A DNA stretch of 64,000 nt from Brevundimonas sp. SL130 (GTDB lineage Bacteria > Pseudomonadota > Alphaproteobacteria > Caulobacterales > Caulobacteraceae), in the NCBI RefSeq assembly GCF_026625805.1, contig NZ_CP113064.1:3264657-3328656 (forward strand), read 5' to 3'. Both the position numbers and the translations under genes were made by a program. The notes below the pieces were generated by a model. It ran no database searches. It had not been told where the DNA came from and was given only the letters and a program-made list of their open reading frames with translations. Each line of letters starts with the position of its first letter. The stretch's first letter is position 1. This document shows positions 2,141 to 12,491 of the stretch, piece after piece.

Positions 2141-2614
2141 ATGCTCGTCTCCCTGCTTCTCGCCTTCACCCTTCAAACAGCGCCTCACGAAGAGCTTCGG
2201 TCTGATTTGACCGAATTGGGAGAACTCATCTCTGTCGGAACTCACTGTGACAGAGCTGGATATCCCGTCGACTTCGAACCCGCCCACCTTATGGAAGCTC
2301 GCCTCAAGGCGCGCGCCGCTGAAGCCGGCCTCTCGGAAGAGGAGGCCACGAACATCATGAACGACGGCTGGGCACGGCAGGACGCGCTTTTCCCGCCCAG
2401 GAACCTGCCCGAGGATTTCGACGACGACGACTTTCTGGCGAGTCTGAACGAAGCACAGAAAATATTTCCGCAAGTTTGTCGCCAACTCGCGACCGACCAC
2501 CCAGAGATGATCCAAGTCGCTGATGTCGATGAAGCCGACCGGGACTTGGTCGAGCGCTTCGATCTTTACCGTCAGGCAATCGCCCTGAAACGAGCACGCA
2601 CGGGGTCTCAGTAG
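2141..2614 (+). CDS. Hypothetical secreted protein, 157 aa
   Basis: I do not recognise this protein. It begins with a short hydrophobic stretch (MLVSLLLAFTLQTA) that looks like a signal peptide and continues as an acidic, helix-rich protein with many Glu, Asp and Ala residues and one DFDDDDF cluster. ATG at 2141 follows the Mur ligase stop by eight bases and has a weak GAGG upstream, so the two may be co-transcribed. Its GC content is visibly lower than that of its neighbours. Its 3' end overlaps by seven bases the end of the flavoreductase gene on the opposite strand. Confidence 0.6.
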   Translation: MLVSLLLAFTLQTAPHEELRSDLTELGELISVGTHCDRAGYPVDFEPAHLMEARLKARAAEAGLSEEEATNIMNDGWARQDALFPPRNLPEDFDDDDFLASLNEAQKIFPQVCRQLATDHPEMIQVADVDEADRDLVERFDLYRQAIALKRARTGSQ

Positions 2615-3969
2615 ACGTCCCGCCGATAGCGGCCGTCTTCGAGCAACTCCAGCACCTGTTCGGCGCCCAACGCCGCCTCCAGCGCCGCATGGACGCCCTG
2701 CGACATCCCCTCCAGACTGCCGCAGACATAGATGACCGCCCCGCGCGCCACCCAGGCGCGTAGTTCGTCGCTCGCCTCCGCCGTCAGATCCTGCACATAC
2801 CGCCCGTCGCCTTCGTCGCGCGAGAAGCACCGGTCCAGCCGCCGCAACACGCCCGACGTCAGCCACGCCTGTAACTCTTCATCGAAGAAGGCGTCGTGCG
2901 CCTGCGTCCGTTCGCCGAACAGCAACCAGGCCCCGCCGCCCGCCGCCGTCCGCGCCTTCAGATGCGCCCGCAATCCCGCGATCCCCGTGCCGTTGCCGAT
3001 CAGGATCATCGGCGTCTCGTCCGCCGGTCCATGGAAGCTGCGGTTCGGGCGTAGCCGCATGCCGATCTGGTCGCCGACCGCCAGATCCTGGGTCAACCAG
3101 CCCGAGGCCAGCCCCGGCGTTCCGTCGGGATGGCGCATCAGGCGGATCAGGCACTCGACCCGCCCGTCAGACGGCAGCGAGGCGATGGAATATTCCCGCG
3201 CGCCGGGCGTCGCCCCGTCCCGTTCGGGCAGGCCGACCTCGGCGATGTCCCCGGCCGCCCAATCGCCGAGGCGGCCGACCGGTTCGAACGCCAGATGATA
3301 GGCCGCTCCGCCCGGACTGCCCGGATTGACCAGGGTCCGCTCGACCAACCGCCAGGGATCGAAGGCGGCCGGAGCCCAGTCCGGCGCGGCGATACTGCCG
3401 GTGATCTGGTTCAACTGATGTTGCCAGCGACGGACGGCGCCGGCCTCGCCGTTATCGACCTCCACCACGTCGAACAGGGCTTCGGCGTCCGAGCGGCGCA
3501 ACCAGCCGTCCACCGCATGGCCGAAGCCGCAGAACTGATCATAGCTGCGGTCGCCGAGGGCCAGCAGTCCGAACCTAAGCCCCTTCAGGTCCGCCGCCTC
3601 ACCCATCAGTTTGCGAACAAACCGGGCCGCAGTGTCGGGCGGGTCGCCCTCGCCGGTCGTCGATACGATCAGCAGGGCCCGCGACGCCGCCTTCAAGGCC
3701 GCAAGATCCAGATCAGCGAAGGACAGGACCCGCGCCCCGACCCCGCCGTCCTGCAAGGCCTTGGCCGTCATCCAGGCCAGCTCCTCGGCGAATCCCGTCT
3801 GGCTGGCGAAGGCGACCAGCACCGCCTCGCCCGGCCCGGCCATCGCCGCCGACCGTGCGCGCGCGGCCGCCTTGGCCCGGCGCTCGCGCCAGACGACGAG
3901 ACCCGTCAGGACCAGCCACAGGGCTGCCGTCCCGGCGGCCCAAAACCAACGCACGGGATCGCCTGTCAC
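2608..3969 (-). CDS. Membrane-anchored flavodoxin/ferredoxin-NADP reductase-type flavoprotein
   Basis: The 453-residue protein is built like the flavoprotein of sulfite reductase or cytochrome P450 reductase. One N-terminal membrane helix (residues 8-28) is followed by a flavodoxin-like FMN domain (SQTGFAEE near 56, STTGEGDPPD near 103, LGDRSYDQF near 140). The FAD-binding strand REYSIASLP is near 260, and the NADPH-binding parts are GNGTGIAGL near 325 and YVCGSLEGM near 420. It is the last gene of a minus-strand operon that begins with a TonB receptor and overlaps apbE by four bases (ATGA). It probably passes electrons from cytosolic NADPH to the membrane for ferric-siderophore reduction; that role is inferred from context. 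Confidence 0.82.
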   Translation of the reverse strand: MTGDPVRWFWAAGTAALWLVLTGLVVWRERRAKAAARARSAAMAGPGEAVLVAFASQTGFAEELAWMTAKALQDGGVGARVLSFADLDLAALKAASRALLIVSTTGEGDPPDTAARFVRKLMGEAADLKGLRFGLLALGDRSYDQFCGFGHAVDGWLRRSDAEALFDVVEVDNGEAGAVRRWQHQLNQITGSIAAPDWAPAAFDPWRLVERTLVNPGSPGGAAYHLAFEPVGRLGDWAAGDIAEVGLPERDGATPGAREYSIASLPSDGRVECLIRLMRHPDGTPGLASGWLTQDLAVGDQIGMRLRPNRSFHGPADETPMILIGNGTGIAGLRAHLKARTAAGGGAWLLFGERTQAHDAFFDEELQAWLTSGVLRRLDRCFSRDEGDGRYVQDLTAEASDELRAWVARGAVIYVCGSLEGMSQGVHAALEAALGAEQVLELLEDGRYRRDVY

Positions 3970-5060
3970 CAGGGCTCTTCCATCATGGCGGCCAGGGCGG
4001 GCGTCATCCGTTCGACCGGCCCGCGCGGCGTCCGCTCCACGAACAGGGCCGCCAGACCGATCGCCTCGGCATGTTCAGGCCCGTCGAACGGCCCCATGAC
4101 CGTCAAGGCCGTGGCGTAGGCGTCCGCCTTCATCGCCGACGGGTGCAGCACCGTCACCGAGGCCACGGCGTTGGTCACCGGCCGGCCGGTCGAACCGTCG
4201 ATCGTATGCGGATAGACCCGTCCATTGTGTTCGAAAGCGCGGCGATAGTCGCCGCTGGTCGCCATGGCCATGTCGTACAGGGCGGCCACGGTGCGCGGCT
4301 CGGTCGAGCCCTCGACCCGCTCGATCTCGACCCACCACGGCTGGGCGTCCGGCTTGACGCCGCACCCCTTCAGCTCGCCCCCGATCTCGACCAGGTGCGA
4401 GGTCGCCCCGATGGCCGTCAGCCGGTCCGAGACCCGGTCCACCGCATGGCCCTTGGCGATGCCCGAGAAATCCAGCTTCATCCCGCCCATCTGCATCAGG
4501 CCCCGCGCCTCGCGGTTCATCCTCAGCCGACGCCAGCCCGACACCGCCAGCGCGGCCTCAACCTCTTCGTCCTCAGGAACCGGCAGCAGGGCGGAACGCG
4601 GCCCCGGCGGGCCGAAGCCCCACAGGTCGACCAGGGCGCCCAGGGTCGGATCGACCGCGCCATTGGTCTCGTCCCCCAGATCCATGGCGGCGTCCAGCAG
4701 GCCCCAGAAGGGCTCCGATACCGACCACATCCCTTCCGGCGCGGCGTTGAATCGACTGATCTCGCTGTTCGGCTCCCAGGGGCTGAAGGCCGCGATCACG
4801 GCCGCCAGCTCCTGTTCGATCGCCGCCCGCGCCTCGACCGGCCCCAGCAGGGGCGGGCCGATCAGGCGCACGCTCCAGGTCGTGCCCATGGTTTCGCCTT
4901 CCAGCGACAGAACCACGTCGCTGGGCGGACGGGGCGGAACCCCGTCCATGGGCGGAATCAGAACCCGATTGTCAGCGCGGTCGGCGAGCGGAACCTGCTC
5001 GCCGACGACGACTGTGGGCGGGGCGGCGCGGGATCCGCGCGAGAAGGGGCTGTCAGACAT
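3966..5060 (-). CDS. apbE: FAD:protein FMN transferase (ApbE family)
   Basis: ApbE attaches FMN covalently to a threonine of target flavoproteins. Visible signatures are MGTTWSV near residue 57, DFSGIAKGHAVD near 198, SGDYRR near 270, HTIDGSTGRPV near 285 and DAYATALTVMG near 315. At 364 residues it is a normal length, but the first 50 residues are polar and proline-rich, with neither a signal peptide nor a lipobox, unlike many ApbE proteins. A cytoplasmic location or a later start is possible. It sits between DUF4198 and the flavoreductase gene. In the same gene set elsewhere, ApbE is thought to flavinylate a PepSY-type or extracytoplasmic partner. Confidence 0.88.
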   Translation of the reverse strand: MSDSPFSRGSRAAPPTVVVGEQVPLADRADNRVLIPPMDGVPPRPPSDVVLSLEGETMGTTWSVRLIGPPLLGPVEARAAIEQELAAVIAAFSPWEPNSEISRFNAAPEGMWSVSEPFWGLLDAAMDLGDETNGAVDPTLGALVDLWGFGPPGPRSALLPVPEDEEVEAALAVSGWRRLRMNREARGLMQMGGMKLDFSGIAKGHAVDRVSDRLTAIGATSHLVEIGGELKGCGVKPDAQPWWVEIERVEGSTEPRTVAALYDMAMATSGDYRRAFEHNGRVYPHTIDGSTGRPVTNAVASVTVLHPSAMKADAYATALTVMGPFDGPEHAEAIGLAALFVERTPRGPVERMTPALAAMMEEPW

Positions 5061-5069
5061 GCCCGTGGC

Positions 5070-5870
5070 TTAGGGCAGGACTTCCATCACCGCCACATAG
5101 CTGGCGTTCGAACCCAGGGTCTCGCCCTGCGCCGGCGCACGAACCGAGGCGTTCAGCCAGTACATGCCGGCTTCGGGCCAGGTCACGGTGAAGGCGCCGT
5201 CGGCGCCGGTCTTGACCGTCATTTCCTCGGGATTGTCGCGATAGCGCACGCCGCCGCGCGCGATTGTGACCTCCAGATCGGCGGCCGGTTGCCCGTCCTT
5301 GACCAGTTTGAAGGTCGCGGCTTCGCCGGCGGCCAGGTCGTTGGGATGGGTCACGGGAACCAGTTCCAGCCCCTCGCCCGTCGGCTTGAAGACGCCGTCG
5401 GTGGCGTTGTTCAGGGTGACGAAGGTCTCGATCCGGCTGGCGGTGCGGGTCGCCTGGACCTCGGTCGCGCCTGCCGGCAGGGCCGCAGGAAACTCGGCCG
5501 CGGTTCCGCGCCAGCGCTTCTGTTCCCCGTTCAGCTTGTAGCTGGCCATGACGCCGCCCATGACATTGGCGACCTTGTAGGTGCCGTTCTGCGTCAGGTG
5601 GACGTCGAAGGTGGTGCGGTACTGGCCCTGCATCAGATGTTCGGGCTGAACGGCCGATCCGTCCGGCGCCGTCACCACCAGGCCGTTCATCCGCATGGCG
5701 GCGTGATCGGGGATGAAGACCCCGTTCGACATGCCGGCGTCGAACCCGACCCAGGCGTCATTGCCCGACAGGCTGGTCGAGGTGGGAGACATCCAGGCGC
5801 GGTGGGCCTGGGCGGCCATGGGCGCAGCCAGGGCGGCGGCGAAAGCCAGAAGCGTGATCGTCTTTTTCAT
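5070..5870 (-). CDS. DUF4198 domain periplasmic protein
   Basis: The 266-residue exported protein has a clean signal peptide (basic MKKT, hydrophobic core, AQA cleavage site near residue 22). The mature part starts HRAWM and has the beta-rich pattern of the DUF4198 family, whose members occur in nickel and iron transport clusters and may bind metal or act as a periplasmic accessory. The mature N-terminal His and several conserved Asp residues would suit metal binding. It lies 11 bases downstream of the DUF2271 gene in the iron-reduction operon. Its biochemical function is not established. Confidence 0.8.
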   Translation of the reverse strand: MKKTITLLAFAAALAAPMAAQAHRAWMSPTSTSLSGNDAWVGFDAGMSNGVFIPDHAAMRMNGLVVTAPDGSAVQPEHLMQGQYRTTFDVHLTQNGTYKVANVMGGVMASYKLNGEQKRWRGTAAEFPAALPAGATEVQATRTASRIETFVTLNNATDGVFKPTGEGLELVPVTHPNDLAAGEAATFKLVKDGQPAADLEVTIARGGVRYRDNPEEMTVKTGADGAFTVTWPEAGMYWLNASVRAPAQGETLGSNASYVAVMEVLP

Positions 5871-5881
5871 GGGTCTGTTCC

Positions 5882-6397
5882 TCAGCGAGAGACGGAGACG
5901 CTCACGGCGCCCAGTTCGGTGGATCCGGAAGCATTGGCGGTGTTGGCGCCGCCCCAGCGGAAGGGCACGCGCACGACTTCGCGTCCGCCCAGCTCACGCG
6001 CCGCCTCGACGACGATCGTGTACTGGCCGGGTTGAAGGCCGCGCAGGCGGGCGGCGGGGACGGTGATGGTCTGGCGACCCGGCGCGCGGGTGGCGCCGGA
6101 GACGCCGTCGGCCGGCAGGCTCATGGCCCGGCCGCCCTTGCGCCACCAGGTGCGCAGATCCTTCAGCCAGTCCTTGCCGTCGCCCTCGTTGTTGCGGGTC
6201 TGCTGGTACCAGACCGCCAGGGTCTGGACCGCCGTCTGATCCGGCCGCTCGATCCACACCGCCACATAGGGGCGGTGATAGGAGGCGGTGTTCAGCCGCG
6301 GCACATCGACGGTGACCGACAGATCCGCAGCCAGAGCCGGCGCGGCGGCGGCCAGGGAAAGCCCGGCCGTAGTGATGACGATGGGAAGCAGGCGCAT
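5882..6397 (-). CDS. DUF2271 domain periplasmic protein
   Basis: The chosen ATG at 6397 gives a 171-residue protein with a typical signal peptide (MRLLPIVITTAGLSLAAAAP, cleavage after ALAA). A longer reading from 6688 would overlap the PepSY gene and is rejected. The mature part contains YVAVWIERPDQ, WYQQTRNNEGDGKDWLKDLRTWW and VPFRWGG, the hallmarks of DUF2271. This family is almost always encoded with PepSY and ApbE proteins. The Trp-rich segment ending in TWW is characteristic. It could be the extracytoplasmic substrate or chaperone of the electron-transfer module, but no activity is proven. Confidence 0.82.
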   Translation of the reverse strand: MRLLPIVITTAGLSLAAAAPALAADLSVTVDVPRLNTASYHRPYVAVWIERPDQTAVQTLAVWYQQTRNNEGDGKDWLKDLRTWWRKGGRAMSLPADGVSGATRAPGRQTITVPAARLRGLQPGQYTIVVEAARELGGREVVRVPFRWGGANTANASGSTELGAVSVSVSR

Positions 6398-6417
6398 CCG
6401 GAACACTCTCACGAAGC

Positions 6418-7164
6418 TCAATGAATAAAGATCAGGGCGATGACGACGGGGATAAGCAGACCCAGGGCCGCCAGCGGCCAGGTGGACGGCCGCCCCTTGG
6501 CGTGCAGCCACATCAGGCCCAGCCCCGTCAGGGCGAAGATAACGCAGGCCACGGCGAAGACGTCGATGAACCAGAACCACACCGCCCCGGCGTTGCGGCC
6601 CTTGTGCAGGTCGTTGAGGTAGGCGATCCACCCCCGCGTCGTCTTCTCGTGCAGAACATCTCCCGTTGAACGGTCGATGGTCACCCATCCGTCGCCGCCC
6701 GGCGTGGGCAAGGCGACATAGATTTCCTCCGCCGTCGTCTCGGTAGGTTTGCCGGCGATCTCGGCCTTCAGGGCCTGGGCCGACCAGCGGGCGACGGCGT
6801 CAGGAACCGGGTCCGTCGTCTCCTCGGGGAAGTCGGCCAATCGCGCCAACAGGGGCGCCGGCAGGGCGGCCGTCTGTTCGACCGTCACCGGATCGGCCGG
6901 GATCGACGCCGCGTGGTTCAGGGTGATGCCGGTCGCCGCGAACAGGACCATGCCCACCAGGCTCAGCGCCGCCGAAATCCAGTGCCAGGAATGAAGCTGT
7001 TTCAGCCAGAAGGACCGCGCGCCGTTCAGCGCCGCCTTCGGCTTTGCGCCCCCCTTTGCAGCGGGCTCGACAGGCTGTTGTGCGGCGAGTTCGGTCACGC
7101 TGTGGCTGTGCCACTGTTGCGAACCGTTTTCAATAGCATCCAGCGGACGAAATCGCCGCACCAA
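6418..7164 (-). CDS. PepSY-associated transmembrane protein
   Basis: This membrane protein of the PepSY_TM group (PiuB-like) is about 248 residues. A first membrane helix starts near residue 57 with SWHWISAALSLVG and ends GITLNHA. A PepSY-like periplasmic domain follows, including WVTIDRSTGDV and the motif LNDLHKGR. Two more helices close the protein. The His residues in LHSWHW, LNHA and LHKGR are candidate haem or metal ligands. The first possible starts are TTG 7164 and GTG 7161, directly after the receptor stop; GTG at VTELAAQQ is also possible. The protein probably conducts electrons across the inner membrane to reduce ferric iron. Confidence 0.82.
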   Translation of the reverse strand: MVRRFRPLDAIENGSQQWHSHSVTELAAQQPVEPAAKGGAKPKAALNGARSFWLKQLHSWHWISAALSLVGMVLFAATGITLNHAASIPADPVTVEQTAALPAPLLARLADFPEETTDPVPDAVARWSAQALKAEIAGKPTETTAEEIYVALPTPGGDGWVTIDRSTGDVLHEKTTRGWIAYLNDLHKGRNAGAVWFWFIDVFAVACVIFALTGLGLMWLHAKGRPSTWPLAALGLLIPVVIALIFIH

Positions 7165-7167
7165 TGT

Positions 7168-9234
7168 TCAGTAGCTGAACCTCATGCCGGCCCGCAGTGT
7201 ACGCGGCGGGGCGTAGCCGGCCACGTCGGTCCCGGTCATAGACACCTCCACCGCCTCGTCGAAGGCGTTGTCCAGGGCGGCCCAGACCATGACGCCTTCG
7301 CGCGCCGCCCATTCCGCACGGGCGTCCAGGGTTACGGCGGCGTCCAGCGTGCGACTGTTCAGGTCATCGTCGAACCGCGCCGATTCATAGCGCGCGGCCA
7401 GACCCAGGGTCAGCCGCTGCGTCGCCCGCCAGTCCAGACCCGCAGTCACGCTCCATTCCGGCGCCTGGGCCGGACGCAGGCCGGTCAGCTGCGACGCCGC
7501 CGTCCCGCCGTCCACCTCAGCGTCCGTCCAGGACAGGACGGCGTTCAGCGACAGGGCTTCGCTCGCCTGGACCGAGCCATTCAGCTCGACGCCCCAGGCC
7601 GCGATGGTCCCGGCGTTCTGGCGCTGGCGCAACACGCCCCCGGCCGGCACGAAGCCGGCGCGGGGGAAGGTCCCCGGCCCCTCGCCGATCGTCACATTGA
7701 CGATGGCGTCCTCGATCTCGTTCCAGAAGACCGTCGCCCCCCAGGCGGTCCCGTCCCGGTCGTAGGCCAGGCCCGTCTCGATCCCGCGCAGAGTCTCGGG
7801 CTCCAGCGCCGAATTGGCCTCGGTGACGTCGTTGCCGACGCGGAACGGCCGGTGCAGTTCGTTCAGCGTCGCCGGCCGGAAGCCGGAATAGGCCGCCGCC
7901 CGCCAGGCGTAGCCGGCGCCCAGCAGATTGCTCAGATCCCGCCGCGCCGCCAACCGGGCGCTGAACACCTCGCCCGACCGGTCCTCGGCCGTCTCGTCCA
8001 GGATCGGCGCGCCGGTCGCCAGGGTGTATTCGTAGCGGAAGCCCGCCTCGTTCTTCCAATGGTCGTAACGCAGCCCGCCGGCGACCAGCCAGTCCCCGCC
8101 GGTCCAAGACCCGTCCACATAACCGCCGGCCACCGACGTCTCGCCGCCCGCGCGCCGTCCCCGGGCGAAGCCCGCGCCGGTCGGATTGCTGAACAACTCG
8201 TTGGTCTCGCCCTCGTTGAACCGGGCGTCGGCGCCGACCTCCCATTCCAGTCGCCCGCCGGCCATCTCGGACACGCGGCGGCGCAGGGCGGCGTTCAGCC
8301 CCCAGCCGGTCGCCGGAGTCCTGTACTGATCATTGGCCGGGGTCGTGGTCGACCGATCCGCCGCCACCGAGGCCGAACTGTTGGCCAGATTGCTCTCTAT
8401 CCGCCAGGCCTGCAGCCGCCAGCCATAGCCATCGACGGGCGGGGCCTTGGCCGCCGTGGCGCTCAGACTGTGGCCGCTGGCGTTGGACCGGGTGTTCAGC
8501 AGGCCGGACCCGCGATCCTCCTCCCAGGTCGCCGTCCGCAGCGACAGGTTGGCCCCCTCGAGGTTGAGCCCGTCCAGAGGCGCATCGACCCGCAGGGCGG
8601 CGCTGCGGCTGTCCAGATCCAGCGGCGTATCCGCCGCCCCGGCCGCCGATCCACGCACCGGCGTATAGCCGTCGCTGGTCTCGTACAGGCCTGACAGGGT
8701 AACGCCGACCGGCCCCAGCATCGTCGATCCCGACCCCGCCGCCCGCGCCCCGCCGCGCTCGCCGACCGACAGGTCCAGCACGCCGCCGCCGTCCCGTTCC
8801 GTCAGGCCGATAGTCCCGGTCAGGGCCCCGGCGCCGTATGGCCCCGCCCCGGCGCCGCGCACCACATCCACCCGCTCCAACGACTCCGGCGCAACCTGGG
8901 ACCAGATCACCCAGCCCCCGAACGGATCATTCAGCGGAACCCCGTCCAGCGTGACCAGGGTCCGCCCCGCGCCCGACGGCGCGATGGCGCGCAGCGAAAT
9001 CCCCTGGGTCGTCGGATTGGCGGCCAGACTGGACGTCCGCCGGAACAGGGACACCGCCGGCACGGTCCGCAAGGCCTCGTCCAGCCGGGTCGAACGCTCC
9101 AGCACGGCCTGATCCAGCCGCACCACCGAAAAGGCGGCGTCAGCAGCGGCGGGCGGAAGACGGGCGGCCGTCACCGTGATTTCGGACAATTGGGCGGGCG
9201 GTGCGGGGGGCGTGTCTTGGAACATTCCGGACAC
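7168..9234 (-). CDS. TonB-dependent outer membrane receptor, first gene of the iron-reduction operon
   Basis: The 688-residue protein has a plug domain (EITVTAARLP as TonB box region, TLDGVPLNDPFGGW, VRGAGAGPYGAGALTGTIGL) and a 22-strand-type beta barrel ending in AGMRFSY with the usual C-terminal aromatic residue. It should import a ferric chelate or similar ligand, given its downstream reductase genes. The frame opens with GTG at 9234 (ATG at 9225 is an alternative). A stop lies upstream, so no signal peptide is encoded in frame. The mature N-terminus seems to begin directly with a Pro-rich linker, which is odd for an outer membrane protein. Confidence 0.85.
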   Translation of the reverse strand: MSGMFQDTPPAPPAQLSEITVTAARLPPAAADAAFSVVRLDQAVLERSTRLDEALRTVPAVSLFRRTSSLAANPTTQGISLRAIAPSGAGRTLVTLDGVPLNDPFGGWVIWSQVAPESLERVDVVRGAGAGPYGAGALTGTIGLTERDGGGVLDLSVGERGGARAAGSGSTMLGPVGVTLSGLYETSDGYTPVRGSAAGAADTPLDLDSRSAALRVDAPLDGLNLEGANLSLRTATWEEDRGSGLLNTRSNASGHSLSATAAKAPPVDGYGWRLQAWRIESNLANSSASVAADRSTTTPANDQYRTPATGWGLNAALRRRVSEMAGGRLEWEVGADARFNEGETNELFSNPTGAGFARGRRAGGETSVAGGYVDGSWTGGDWLVAGGLRYDHWKNEAGFRYEYTLATGAPILDETAEDRSGEVFSARLAARRDLSNLLGAGYAWRAAAYSGFRPATLNELHRPFRVGNDVTEANSALEPETLRGIETGLAYDRDGTAWGATVFWNEIEDAIVNVTIGEGPGTFPRAGFVPAGGVLRQRQNAGTIAAWGVELNGSVQASEALSLNAVLSWTDAEVDGGTAASQLTGLRPAQAPEWSVTAGLDWRATQRLTLGLAARYESARFDDDLNSRTLDAAVTLDARAEWAAREGVMVWAALDNAFDEAVEVSMTGTDVAGYAPPRTLRAGMRFSY

Positions 9235-9265
9235 AATAGACCAGCTTCGCCCTGGTTCACCCCTG

Positions 9266-9304: not shown

Positions 9305-9988
9305 TCACACCTCGGACCAGCGCCGCAGCAGGTTGTGATAGACGCCGGTCAGTTCGATCACCGCCTGATCCTTCGGCCCCTTCTCCAACCCCACCCGCTG
9401 GGTCGCGACGTCCAGGCGGAACAGCATCTCGCGGTCGCCGTCGTCGCGGATCAGGCTCTGCATCCACATGAAGGACGACACCCGCGCCCCGCGCGTCACC
9501 GGCATGACCTTATGAAGGCTCTTGGACGGATACAGCACCAGGTCTCCGGCCGGCAGCTTGACCGACTGGGGGCCATACATCTCCTCGATGATCAGCTCGC
9601 CGCCGTCGTAATCCTCGGGCTCGGACAGGAACAGGGTGGCCGACAGGTCGCTGCGGATACGGACGCCGCCGCCACGCTGCTGGCGGATGGCGTTGTCCAC
9701 GTGCAGCCCGAACTCGCCGCCGCCTTCGTAGCGATTGAACAGCGGCGGAAAGATCGTGTGCGGCAGGGCGGCGGCCACGAACATCGGATTGGCGTTCAGC
9801 GCCTGAACCACCAGAGACGAAACCTCTCGGGCCACGTCCGAGTCTTCCGGCAGTTGCTGGTTCCGCTTCGCCGTCGCCGACTGATGGCCCGAAGTCATAT
9901 TGCCGTCAGCCCAGGGACCGGCGTCCAGCCGCTCGCGCAAGGCCTTCACTTCGGCCTTGGAGAAGACTTCGGGAATCTGCAGCAGCAC
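9305..9988 (-). CDS. piuC: PKHD-type Fe(II)/2-oxoglutarate dioxygenase PiuC/YbiX
   Basis: The 227-residue protein matches PiuC in length. Iron ligands are the His and Asp of GLHVDNA near residue 97 and the distal His of [10 protein letters not shown] near 158; the 2-oxoglutarate-binding Arg is in [10 protein letters not shown]. The C-terminal [11 protein letters not shown] is typical. The start is GTG 9988 (MLLQIPEV, the usual family start). PiuC is almost always encoded beside a catecholate siderophore receptor, as here with the receptor ending at 10063. A strong terminator lies between the two, so piuC needs read-through or its own promoter. The physiological substrate of the family is unknown. 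Confidence 0.9.
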
Positions 9989-10001: not shown

Positions 10002-10038
10002 CAAAAGAAAACGGCCCCGCCGGAGGGACGGGGCCGTT
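10002..10038 (-). terminator. Rho-independent terminator of the siderophore receptor gene
   Basis: A 10-bp perfect stem (AACGGCCCCG with CGGGGCCGTT, loop of 9) at 10010-10038 is followed, in the minus-strand direction, by a U-rich tract (complement of aaaagaaaa). It starts 25 bases past the stop of the receptor gene. Confidence 0.85.
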
Positions 10039-10062: not shown

Positions 10063-12402
10063 TTAGAAGCGCAGGTTCAGCGCCAGGATCGCCTGCCGCG
10101 CCGGGGCGACATCGGCGTGGTGAACCCCGTTGGTGCGGATGATATATTCCTCGTCCGTCAGGTTCTTCACGTTCAGCTGCAGGCTGGCGCGATCCGTCAG
10201 ATCGTAAGAGGCGAAGGCGTCCACGCGCGTCCATTCCGGCGCATAGATGCGGTTGGTCCCGCCGCCCGCGCCGCCCTGGTTCCCGCCGAAGGACTTGGAC
10301 GTGTAATAGACGCCGCCGCCCAGGGTCAGCTTGCGCGTGACGCGATAGGTGCTGAACAGGCTGGCGGTGTGTTCCGGCGTATTGGCCAGCGGATCGCCTT
10401 CGTTGACGCTGGTGTAGGCCCCCTCGACCAGTTCGGAGTCCATATAGGTATAGCCGCCGAAGACCGTCCAGGCGGGCGTGATGCTGCCCGACACGCCGAG
10501 CTCCAGCCCCTTCACCTCGACCTCGCCCGCCTGTTCGTAGTCCGTCGTGCCGGACACCAGGATGATGGCGTTCTTACGCGTGGTCTGGAACAGGGCGGCC
10601 GACAGAGCCAACCGGTCGCTGAAGACATTGGCCTTGGCGCCGATCTCGAAGCTTTCGCTGTCCTCCGGGTCAAGAACCTCGTTGGCTAGATCACCCGACC
10701 CGGTGCCACCGGACGCGTTCTGATCGCCGGACGAGATGGTCGGCGGCGTCGAGGAGGTGGACCAGGAGGCGTAGACGCTGCTGCTCGGCGTCGGCTTGAA
10801 CACCAGGCCGACCTGATAGTTGGTGAACTCCCAGGTGCGCTTGGGCACGATCGTATAGGTCGGAGTGCCCCATACGCCGGCGGTAGGTTGGGTCGGCGTG
10901 ACGGTCGCGTTGATCCCGTCCACCGCATACTGATCCCAGCGCACGCCCAGGTTCAGGATCAGCCGCTCGCTCAGGGTGATGCTGTCGTTGGCGTAGACGC
11001 CGATGGTCTCGGTGGTGTTCGAGCTGATCGGCCCGCGATTGATGACGCCCGTCCAGGCGTCGTCGGCGTTCGGATTATAGACCTGGGTGCAGTCGCCGGC
11101 GCCCAGGGCGCTCGATGCGGTCGGATAGGAACCGCTGACCGTGGTCAGGCCCGTCGGGCAGGTCGAGCCCGAAGTGGTGTAGGTCGAATAAGAGGCGTTG
11201 CGGTTCCGCTCGCGCGACAGTTCCACGCCCACGTCATAGCTGTGCTTGATCGATCCGGTGGCGAACTGACCATAGACGTCAGTCACATTGGCCAGGGTGG
11301 TGACCGGGTTCCAGCGGGTCTTGGTGCCCCGCTTCATCCAGTAGGTGCCGTCGGCCGCCCGCCCCACATAACCGCCGTCGCCGGGGTTGGTGACGATATA
11401 GTCGTTCAGGGTCTCGGAATAGCGGCTGACGTTGCGGATCGTGGCCACGTCGTTCAGGCGGTGCTCGGCCTTGAAGGTGAAGGTGTCCACCTCATTGGTC
11501 AGGAAGTCCCGACCCTTGACGCCGTAGAAGCTGTCGTAGGGCACGTCCAGAATGCCGCTGTCGGTCGTGCGCACCCCGATCTTGGTGAACAGCGGGATGC
11601 CGTAGTCGGGCATCTGGTCGCTGGTCAGGTGATAATAGCTGAACACCATCGACGACGGCGTGCCCAGGCCGGCGCCCAGGCTGATCGCCGCGCCCCACTT
11701 GTCATAATCGACGCTGTCGCGACCGGGCACATCGCCCTGCGCGCCCATCAGATTGACCCGCAGCGCCGCCGTCCCGCCCAGCGGCATGTTGGAGTCGATC
11801 GTGCCGCGCAGATAGGAGTCGGTGCCGACGCTGGCGCCGATGTTGGTGAACTCGGTCAGTTGGGGCGCCTTGGAGCCCATATTGATGCTGCCGCCGCCCG
11901 AACCGCGACCGGAATAGACCGCATCAGGCCCCTTGATGACTTCGACCTGCTCCAGGTTGAAGACTTCGCGTTGCTGGCCGCCCGTGTCGCGCAGGCCGTC
12001 GACGAAGATGTTGTTGCCCGACGACTGACCCCGGATGAAGGGCCGGTCCGCCAACGGCTGCCCGCCTTCGCCCGCGCCGAAGGTGATGCCGGGCGAGTTC
12101 ATCAGCACGTCTTGCAGCGACGACGCGGCCGTCTGCTCGATGATCTGCTGCGGAATGATGGTCACCGCCCGGGGCGTGTCCAGCAGGGGCGCCACGAACT
12201 CGGGGCTTTGCGGCTCCCGCTTCTTCAGTTGGCCATTGACGTTGATCGTGCCGAGATTGGTCGGTTGTTGCTGCTCAGCGGTGAAGACTACGCCGTCTTC
12301 GGCTGGAACCTCGGCGGCAAAGGCCGGCGCGACGACCAGCATGCCTGCGGCGCTGGAGGCGAACAGAAGCGAACGGAGCGCGACGGCGCGGGACTCGGAC
12401 AT
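10063..12402 (-). CDS. TonB-dependent siderophore receptor (Fiu-like)
   Basis: The 779-residue receptor has a signal peptide (MSESRAVALRSLLFASSAAG, cleavage after AFA). Its plug domain shows VTIIPQQIIEQ, the siderophore-receptor hallmark RPFIRGQ, and FVDGLRDTGGQQREVFNLEQ followed by VIKGPDAVYSGRGSGGG. The barrel ends LALNLRF. ATG at 12402 is chosen because it directly precedes the signal peptide and has AAGG upstream; a frame from 12444 adds 14 basic residues. The pairing with piuC matches the fiu-ybiX arrangement of enterobacteria, suggesting a catecholate ligand. Two 15-bp palindromes upstream may mediate iron control. Confidence 0.9.
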   Translation of the reverse strand: MSESRAVALRSLLFASSAAGMLVVAPAFAAEVPAEDGVVFTAEQQQPTNLGTINVNGQLKKREPQSPEFVAPLLDTPRAVTIIPQQIIEQTAASSLQDVLMNSPGITFGAGEGGQPLADRPFIRGQSSGNNIFVDGLRDTGGQQREVFNLEQVEVIKGPDAVYSGRGSGGGSINMGSKAPQLTEFTNIGASVGTDSYLRGTIDSNMPLGGTAALRVNLMGAQGDVPGRDSVDYDKWGAAISLGAGLGTPSSMVFSYYHLTSDQMPDYGIPLFTKIGVRTTDSGILDVPYDSFYGVKGRDFLTNEVDTFTFKAEHRLNDVATIRNVSRYSETLNDYIVTNPGDGGYVGRAADGTYWMKRGTKTRWNPVTTLANVTDVYGQFATGSIKHSYDVGVELSRERNRNASYSTYTTSGSTCPTGLTTVSGSYPTASSALGAGDCTQVYNPNADDAWTGVINRGPISSNTTETIGVYANDSITLSERLILNLGVRWDQYAVDGINATVTPTQPTAGVWGTPTYTIVPKRTWEFTNYQVGLVFKPTPSSSVYASWSTSSTPPTISSGDQNASGGTGSGDLANEVLDPEDSESFEIGAKANVFSDRLALSAALFQTTRKNAIILVSGTTDYEQAGEVEVKGLELGVSGSITPAWTVFGGYTYMDSELVEGAYTSVNEGDPLANTPEHTASLFSTYRVTRKLTLGGGVYYTSKSFGGNQGGAGGGTNRIYAPEWTRVDAFASYDLTDRASLQLNVKNLTDEEYIIRTNGVHHADVAPARQAILALNLRF

Positions 12403-12476: not shown

Positions 12477-12491
12477 TGCGACTTAGTCGCA
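12477..12491. promoter_or_regulatory. Palindromic operator-like site 2 upstream of siderophore receptor
   Basis: TGCGACTTAGTCGCA is a perfect 7-1-7 inverted repeat (arms TGCGACT and AGTCGCA) about 75 bases upstream of the receptor start. The form fits a Fur-type repressor site. Assignment to Fur is inferred from the gene it precedes. Confidence 0.5.

Follow-up and report, generated by a model that had tools for sequence, protein, structure and literature searches.

We analysed a 64,000-nucleotide window of the complete, single-contig, 3.5 Mb genome of Brevundimonas sp. SL130, focusing on an operon that encodes a PepSY membrane protein, a DUF2271 protein, a DUF4198 protein, the flavin transferase ApbE and a membrane-anchored flavodoxin/FNR reductase. 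ApbE, which attaches flavin mononucleotide (FMN) from flavin adenine dinucleotide (FAD) to proteins, has no export signal here and stands beside a target that has one. We think it reasonably probable that these genes form a flavin-wired ferric reductase operon of the Fur type, in which ApbE acts in the cytosol before DUF2271 is exported. The operon class itself is published. In the portions of the literature available to us, to which all statements about cited papers refer, we found no statement that its flavin transferase is without an export signal beside a target that bears one. Apart from the ApbE review PMC12052999, our literature search returned no account of signal-less ApbEs or receptors in those portions.

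ApbE has no signal peptide and the adjacent DUF2271 has one

The window ApbE begins with MSDSPFSRGSRAAPP..., preceded by an in-frame stop four codons upstream, and is the single ApbE of the genome (one genome-wide match). It has the family match and the motif residues of extracytosolic ApbEs and neither a signal peptide nor a lipobox. Residues K203, G204, D208, H285 and D313, which we take to have catalytic or Mg roles, are invariant in 46 alignment rows.

Signal peptides were scored with a simple home-made rule (positive n-region, hydrophobic 9-mer and AxA-like site; not SignalP), applied to 101 loci comprising the window, 60 loci from the host's family and a further 40, almost all of which come from other families. 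ApbE is present in 87 of these loci, and 81 of the 82 ApbEs that are not fused to DUF2271 have no signal peptide; for the sole separate ApbE flagged by the rule (L072), the flag falls on an RVLVP segment. Separate DUF2271 proteins are signal-positive in 77 of 91 cases, and the paired loci show a negative ApbE with a positive DUF2271 69 times, two negatives 7 times and two positives once. The controls behaved as follows: DUF4198 was positive in 87/87 cases and the dioxygenase CciO, serving as negative control, in 1/43. A second set of 80 named loci, ranging from Brevundimonas to Xanthomonas and scored with a slightly loosened rule, has ApbE without signal in 66/75 loci, the remaining 9 flags coinciding with the RVL(I/V)P segment or spanning it, with DUF2271 positive in 79/80 and CciO in 0/25.

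We considered RVLIP as a short signal peptide in the window ApbE and rejected it: residues 31-50, RVLIP included, are folded in the structural model at a predicted local distance difference test (pLDDT) above 90, and polar residues follow the segment in many Brevundimonas loci. In many ApbEs the folded domain starts just 17-35 residues after the upstream stop, and the intervening stretch contains nothing hydrophobic. Some Cupriavidus loci have a longer form of the RVLIP segment, VLIPVALSAPPP, and a lax rule counts it as signal.

Two further arrangements bear on where ApbE and DUF2271 meet. Of the fetched modules, 11 come without a local ApbE, and in 11/11 the best ApbE elsewhere in the genome carries a signal peptide and lipobox by eye. 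At 5 loci ApbE and DUF2271 are fused in one protein with a signal peptide at its start (3 by rule, 2 by eye). Because the separate ApbE has no signal and is the only one in the genome, the ApbE located elsewhere is a lipoprotein, and the fused proteins are signal-bearing, the simplest reading is that the two proteins would meet in one compartment each time, which for the separate-gene type would be the cytosol, prior to export. Side chains bearing a bulky adduct should be able to pass through Sec. The window ApbE would most likely flavinylate the DUF2271 precursor with cytosolic FAD, after which Sec would export the modified chain; export of folded, FMN-bearing DUF2271 by twin-arginine translocation (Tat) was rejected by eye, as the DUF2271 signals listed for the 101-locus set lack a typical twin-Arg motif. 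The reaction itself works in the cytosol when a signal-less ApbE and DUF2271 are co-expressed in E. coli (PMC8238504).

A broader proposal strikes us as evenly balanced: that Proteobacterial PepSY/DUF2271 iron-reduction operons have shifted flavinylation to the cytosol, with Sec exporting the FMN-loaded chain, and that modules without their own ApbE rely on a periplasmic lipoprotein ApbE.

DUF2271 is the predicted flavin carrier

Among the 10 window proteins scanned, the [ST]GA[ST] flavinylation motif occurs once, in DUF2271 (DGVSGAT), and neither PepSY nor DUF4198 contains it. An initial annotation of this DNA had proposed looking for the ApbE target threonine in the PepSY and DUF proteins and had guessed that one DUF protein is the flavinylated or metal-carrying partner; the motif designates DUF2271 as the predicted flavin carrier, with Thr103 as its predicted FMN acceptor, and leaves DUF4198 as the probable metal carrier. 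The same type of acceptor site has been demonstrated on an Amantichitinum DUF2271 protein (PMC8238504).

The acceptor Thr is retained in about 96% of 93 DUF2271 sequences, the commonest motif variants being SGAT (31), SGPT (16) and SSAT (15). Since SGPT and SSAT stand for SGAT in many of these proteins while the Thr stays, the recognition motif of ApbE is probably looser than [ST]GA[ST]. A search of PDB sequences with DUF2271 gave no match at E up to 1.

The genome has a second DUF2271 gene (G000:C1:1348267-1348698; L002, L073), which encodes a signal peptide and the motif DGVSGATRSPG and neighbours an EF-hand-like open reading frame (ORF). There is no PepSY or ApbE gene nearby, and its product would rely on the genome's single ApbE.

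A proposed electron path to ferric iron

In the mechanism that we propose, electrons would enter from cytosolic NAD(P)H through the flavodoxin/FNR reductase. This protein scores below the CysJ equivalog cut-off and has one N-terminal hydrophobic transmembrane segment followed by an Arg-rich stretch, so that its C-terminus is predicted to be cytosolic by the positive-inside rule, an established topology principle. The electrons would then cross the inner membrane via His-ligated hemes of PepSY, in which two His columns are conserved in 89/89 sequences, a third in 85/89 and a fourth in 80/89. A search of PDB sequences with PepSY gave no match at E up to 1; its conserved His residues are compatible with heme b ligation as in FoxB (PMC11334425). 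From there, electrons would pass to the FMN covalently held by periplasmic DUF2271 and reduce ferric iron, and the N-terminal His site of DUF4198 might hold the released divalent metal until import, for example by Feo. The NADPH oxidation, transmembrane electron flow and covalent flavin loading that had been assigned to these genes are supported as an NAD(P)H-to-periplasm module.

DUF4198 is probably a metal carrier, and it may carry Fe(II). Its predicted signal cleavage site reads AxA|H, which would leave an N-terminal His, and 84/87 proteins have His at the predicted position; H23, H56 and H175 are invariant in 48/48 rows of alignment A2. The AlphaFold2 model has a pLDDT of 86.6, with residues 1-23, N-terminal His included, below 50. 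Its fold matches metal-bound Zcp structures (9MHI-9MHN) with Z 19.7 and the nickel-bound IsDUF4198 (9GCB), which likewise has an N-terminal His, with Z 15.4; the alignment to the latter begins with residue 23 of the model and residue 1 of the chain. Sequence identity to these proteins is 14-18%. IsDUF4198 binds Ni with a dissociation constant of 18 nM (PMC12537917). Its second ligand, His18, was rejected for the window protein, which has Trp at that position, counted from the predicted mature start, and keeps H56 and H175 instead.

That ferric iron is the substrate is well supported by analogy with Caulobacter crescentus, whose orthologous operon CC3059-3063 is strongly induced when iron is limiting or fur is mutated and is bound by Fur in gel shifts (PMC3751524). 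Insertions in that operon, which is already genetically tractable, reduce fitness in ethylenediaminetetraacetate (EDTA; PMC12004947). The ferric reduction predicted in the initial annotation is the most likely activity of the module.

Gene order and starts

All six genes of the initial annotation, which counted the adjacent TonB receptor among them, are present on the minus strand in the order that it gave, as domain profile matches confirm (Table 1). PepSY, DUF2271 and ApbE are found together repeatedly across Proteobacteria, which argues that the gene block is not a chance arrangement. The genes and their order, the motifs, the presence or absence of signal peptides, the single ApbE and conservation are all direct readings of the DNA.

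The mechanical ORF starts are too long. The ATG of DUF2271 lies at 6397, downstream of the PepSY end, and PepSY starts at the GTG at 7098, a start shared by 5 other genus loci (L033-L036, L043; compared by eye); the first gene of the published C. crescentus operon likewise begins with GTG (PMC3751524). With corrected starts, the intergenic gaps are 69 nt between receptor and PepSY, then 20, 11 and 9 nt, and ApbE and the reductase overlap by 4 nt. Gaps below 25 bases or overlaps had been reported throughout, which holds for 4 of the 5 junctions and fails between receptor and PepSY because PepSY starts at the conserved GTG. The interval assigned to the module, 2608-9234, also ends short, as a PKHD dioxygenase and a Fiu/PiuA-type receptor lie directly upstream in the same direction.

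Table 1. Features of the operon and its neighbourhood (window coordinates)
Feature	Position	Strand	Remarks
Flavodoxin/FNR (CysJ-like) membrane-anchored reductase	2608..3969	-	GTG start; flavodoxin PF00258 and NAD-binding PF00175
ApbE FAD:protein FMN transferase, without signal peptide	3966..5060	-	PF02424, E 4e-78
DUF4198 periplasmic protein, probable metal carrier	5070..5870	-	PF10670, E 1e-56
DUF2271 periplasmic protein, Sec signal peptide and DGVSGAT motif	5882..6397	-	PF10029, E 1e-45
SGAT motif codons of DUF2271	6089..6100	-	Thr103 (171-residue protein), predicted FMN acceptor
PepSY_TM_like_2 inner-membrane protein	6418..7098	-	PF16357, E 7e-77; GTG start
TonB-dependent receptor without signal peptide	7168..9225	-	Plug and barrel; neighbour, not module part
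TATTGT -10-like element abutting receptor ATG	9233..9238	-	Possible leaderless start
PKHD-type Fe(II)/2-oxoglutarate dioxygenase, CciO/PiuC/YbiX family	9305..9988	-	NF003973, 361 bits vs cut-off 336
Terminator-like hairpin in the cciT-cciO gap, then T-rich stretch	10010..10038	-	
Fiu/PiuA/CciT-type TonB receptor, signal peptide present	10063..12402	-	Mechanical ORF reaches 12444
7-1-7 palindrome TGCGACTNAGTCGCA, candidate Fur box 5' of cciT	12477..12491	.	

On the plus strand, at about 719-2132, a frameshift interrupts an Mpl-type Mur ligase gene: ORF 719-2614 holds the middle domain and ORF 1566-2132 the C-terminal one. Either a sequencing error or a pseudogene could account for this.

The CciT/CciO pair and Fur-box-like sites

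The dioxygenase passes the NCBIfam cut-off for Fe2+-dependent dioxygenases. The CciT-type receptor fails the PRK09840 Fiu equivalog (454.7 vs 686 bits) and passes TIGR01783 (236.1 vs 223.5). CciO lies in the same fetched stretch as the module in 43/101 loci and in 25/80 named loci, in several arrangements, and within the genus the DUF2271 module and a close CciO are within 12 kb of each other in 24 of the 25 genomes having both. The CciT/CciO (PiuA/PiuC) pair is a better partner for the module than the adjacent receptor. Homologues of CciT-type receptors are tied to cefiderocol resistance (PMC12004947). The hairpin in the cciT-cciO gap suggests attenuated read-through into cciO and beyond.

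The palindrome 5' of cciT is the only perfect match to TGCGANTNANTCGCA in the genome. Among the one-mismatch sites, one is beside a heme oxygenase and one beside a TonB receptor, and others are near genes with no visible iron link; with 2 mismatches allowed, matches within the window alone are no more frequent than chance. In family loci, a site with at most 2 mismatches precedes CciT in 30/32 cases and PepSY in 19/55, the window PepSY not among them. The corresponding counts are 0/18 for the second receptor, 0/57 for ApbE, 0/47 for the reductase and 0/31 for CciO, and 5/55 for the internal gene DUF4198, taken as control.

The second TonB receptor is a neighbour of the module

The receptor at 9225-7168 begins at its mature sequence (MFQDTPPAPPAQLSEITVTAARLPP). 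The pattern TATTGTnnCGCTTnATG at its -10-like element was seen by eye in several genus loci. Orthologues above 400 bits number 60, of which 56 have no in-frame signal by rule, including two (L102, L118) that are signal-bearing by eye. Within the family, one genus (L102, L103) has signal peptides, as do the out-of-family orthologues L115-L118.

A frameshifted or upstream signal peptide was rejected, as searching 180 nt found one in frame in 0/47 cases and in the other frames in 1/47 and 0/47. These 47 are the 60 orthologues minus 13: fragments, contig-edge cases and misplaced anchors (L052, L111, L183, L184, L187, L190, L197), the signal-bearing L102 and L103, and the out-of-family L115-L118. 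Decay of the gene was also rejected, the ratio of nonsynonymous to synonymous substitution rates being 0.10-0.25 in 12 pairs. In most of the family's genera the receptor has no signal peptide and yet evolves under purifying selection, and its TonB-box-like EVVVT segment is kept.

The receptor had been regarded as the uptake part of the module. Its orthologues occur in 173/199 family genomes (E 1e-60 or better), for the most part at sites apart from the module, and in none of 18 loci is the receptor gene preceded by a Fur-box-like site at up to 3 mismatches. It is a neighbour and a poor fit as a module part, and the uptake assignment is not supported.

Alternative readings

Several points count against cytosolic flavinylation within an iron operon. 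The electron path, iron as the substrate in Brevundimonas and the order of flavinylation before export are all deduced from sequence, and a missing signal peptide is no proof of cytosolic location. Our rule failed to flag 14 of 91 separate DUF2271s, although the majority of these look Sec-like by eye; about 5 of the 75 ApbE rows of the named loci are contig-edge or misplaced-anchor fragments (L183, L206, L211, L213, L241), and the 101-locus and 80-locus sets have some genomes in common. The strict [ST]GA[ST] motif is present in only 37/93 DUF2271s. IsDUF4198 prefers Ni, and iron goes unmentioned in the available part of PMC12537917. The thiamine role of Salmonella ApbE requires a periplasmic location (PMC12052999). 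The DUF2271-associated ApbE of A. ursilacus is termed 'signal peptide-truncated' (PMC8238504), which implies that an exported ApbE with a separate DUF2271 may exist and that not all DUF2271-linked ApbEs are signal-less. It is conceivable that the window ApbE reaches the periplasm through an unrecognised short signal, by piggy-back or by non-classical export, and acts there in the same iron operon. Characterised ApbEs do act in the periplasm (PMC12052999), the lipoprotein ApbE must serve DUF2271 in the 11 genomes whose module has none, so that periplasmic flavinylation of DUF2271 probably exists, and the Cupriavidus run-on could be such a signal. We nevertheless find this route unlikely, given how little sequence precedes the fold in many ApbEs, the position of the window RVLIP inside the fold, and the Sec-like DUF2271 signals, which make piggy-back through Tat unlikely. 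A signal-less ApbE might also serve a cytosolic target, as is known from Klebsiella (PMC12052999), the Brevundimonas DUF2271 then not being flavinylated. This seems improbable to us, as the motif was found in DUF2271 only, in a scan of 10 window proteins and not of the proteome, the acceptor Thr is conserved, and apbE and DUF2271 share a gene block in most loci.

As to substrate and uptake, an alternative to iron would be another metal (nickel, zinc, cobalt or copper) or a part in general envelope redox. The Ni affinity of IsDUF4198 would fit, as would the Zn, Cu or Co bound by the Zcp proteins, the nearest fold matches of DUF4198, and the effect of C. crescentus cciT/cciO on Cu resistance (PMC12004943). 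Such a role has little likelihood in our view, given that the orthologous operon is Fur-regulated and has a phenotype in EDTA (PMC3751524, PMC12004947), that linkage to CciT/CciO recurs, and that Fur-box-like sites precede CciT and PepSY. It is quite unlikely, too, that the adjacent receptor is the module's dedicated importer: the window and some of the genus loci have it just upstream in the same orientation, but it is mostly found elsewhere, has a promoter-like element of its own and no signal peptide, and has none of the Fur-box-like sites seen before CciT.

Significance

The supply of FAD to periplasmic ApbE was called obscure in a 2025 review (PMC12052999). If cytosolic flavinylation before export is correct, loading FMN in the cytosol onto a protein destined for export would make periplasmic FAD unnecessary, Sec would export a protein bearing covalent FMN, and one substrate domain would be matured in two compartments, depending on the bacterium. 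Two undefined operon members become a flavin carrier (DUF2271, predicted) and a probable metal carrier (DUF4198). The recurrent link with CciT/CciO would offer a possible electron-supply partner for that receptor/dioxygenase pair.

Comparison with known systems

The operon is a member of the published PepSY-like flavinylation class, and the module itself is not new. By the class definition of PMC8238504, it has a PepSY-like protein (PF03929/PF16357; E 7e-77) in a flavinylation-associated cluster and a substrate with acceptor motif and signal peptide (DUF2271 SGAT). The initial annotation was right in calling it an electron-transfer module and missed that the class had been described by Meheust 2021 (PMC8238504), that the CciT/CciO genes are located upstream, and that neither ApbE nor the receptor has a signal peptide. 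That study lists 3220 PepSY-like flavinylation clusters, with DUF2271 in 2833, DUF4198 in 1500 and a TonB receptor in 231, and found that a DUF2271 is flavinylated by its ApbE, using a site mutant. The Brevundimonas operon shares PepSY, DUF2271, DUF4198, ApbE and an NAD-binding partner with these systems, a minority of which include a TonB receptor. It differs in that its reductase is a separate anchored protein and its ApbE has no export signal, whereas PMC8238504, in the part available, treats extracytosolic ApbE only.

The cytosolic ApbE of Klebsiella pneumoniae likewise has no signal peptide (PMC12052999), but its target is a cytosolic fumarate reductase, unlike the adjacent DUF2271 of Brevundimonas with its Sec signal peptide. 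The siderophore reductases FoxB and HiuB (PepSY-PiuB) resemble the module in having a PepSY-family membrane protein, conserved His residues and a proposed role in ferri-siderophore reduction; neither a flavinylated partner nor ApbE is described for them in the available part of PMC12424826. The receptor and PKHD dioxygenase pairs CciT/CciO, PiuA/PiuC and Fiu/YbiX correspond to the two genes upstream. A PepSY protein is already known among the best cciT/cciO neighbours, in <25% of genomes (PMC12004943); in Brevundimonas the full ApbE/DUF2271/DUF4198 module follows, which refines that known link by widening it to all of the flavinylation module.

A close counterpart is C. crescentus CC3059-3063 (CCNA_03155-03159), with the same five families, PepSY, DUF2271, DUF4198, ApbE and reductase, in identical order (PMC3751524, PMC12004947). 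The ApbEs fetched from the family have no signal peptide. The cciT/cciO genes of C. crescentus (CC0028/0027) are at a separate locus, whereas those of Brevundimonas lie directly upstream of the operon with the extra receptor between.

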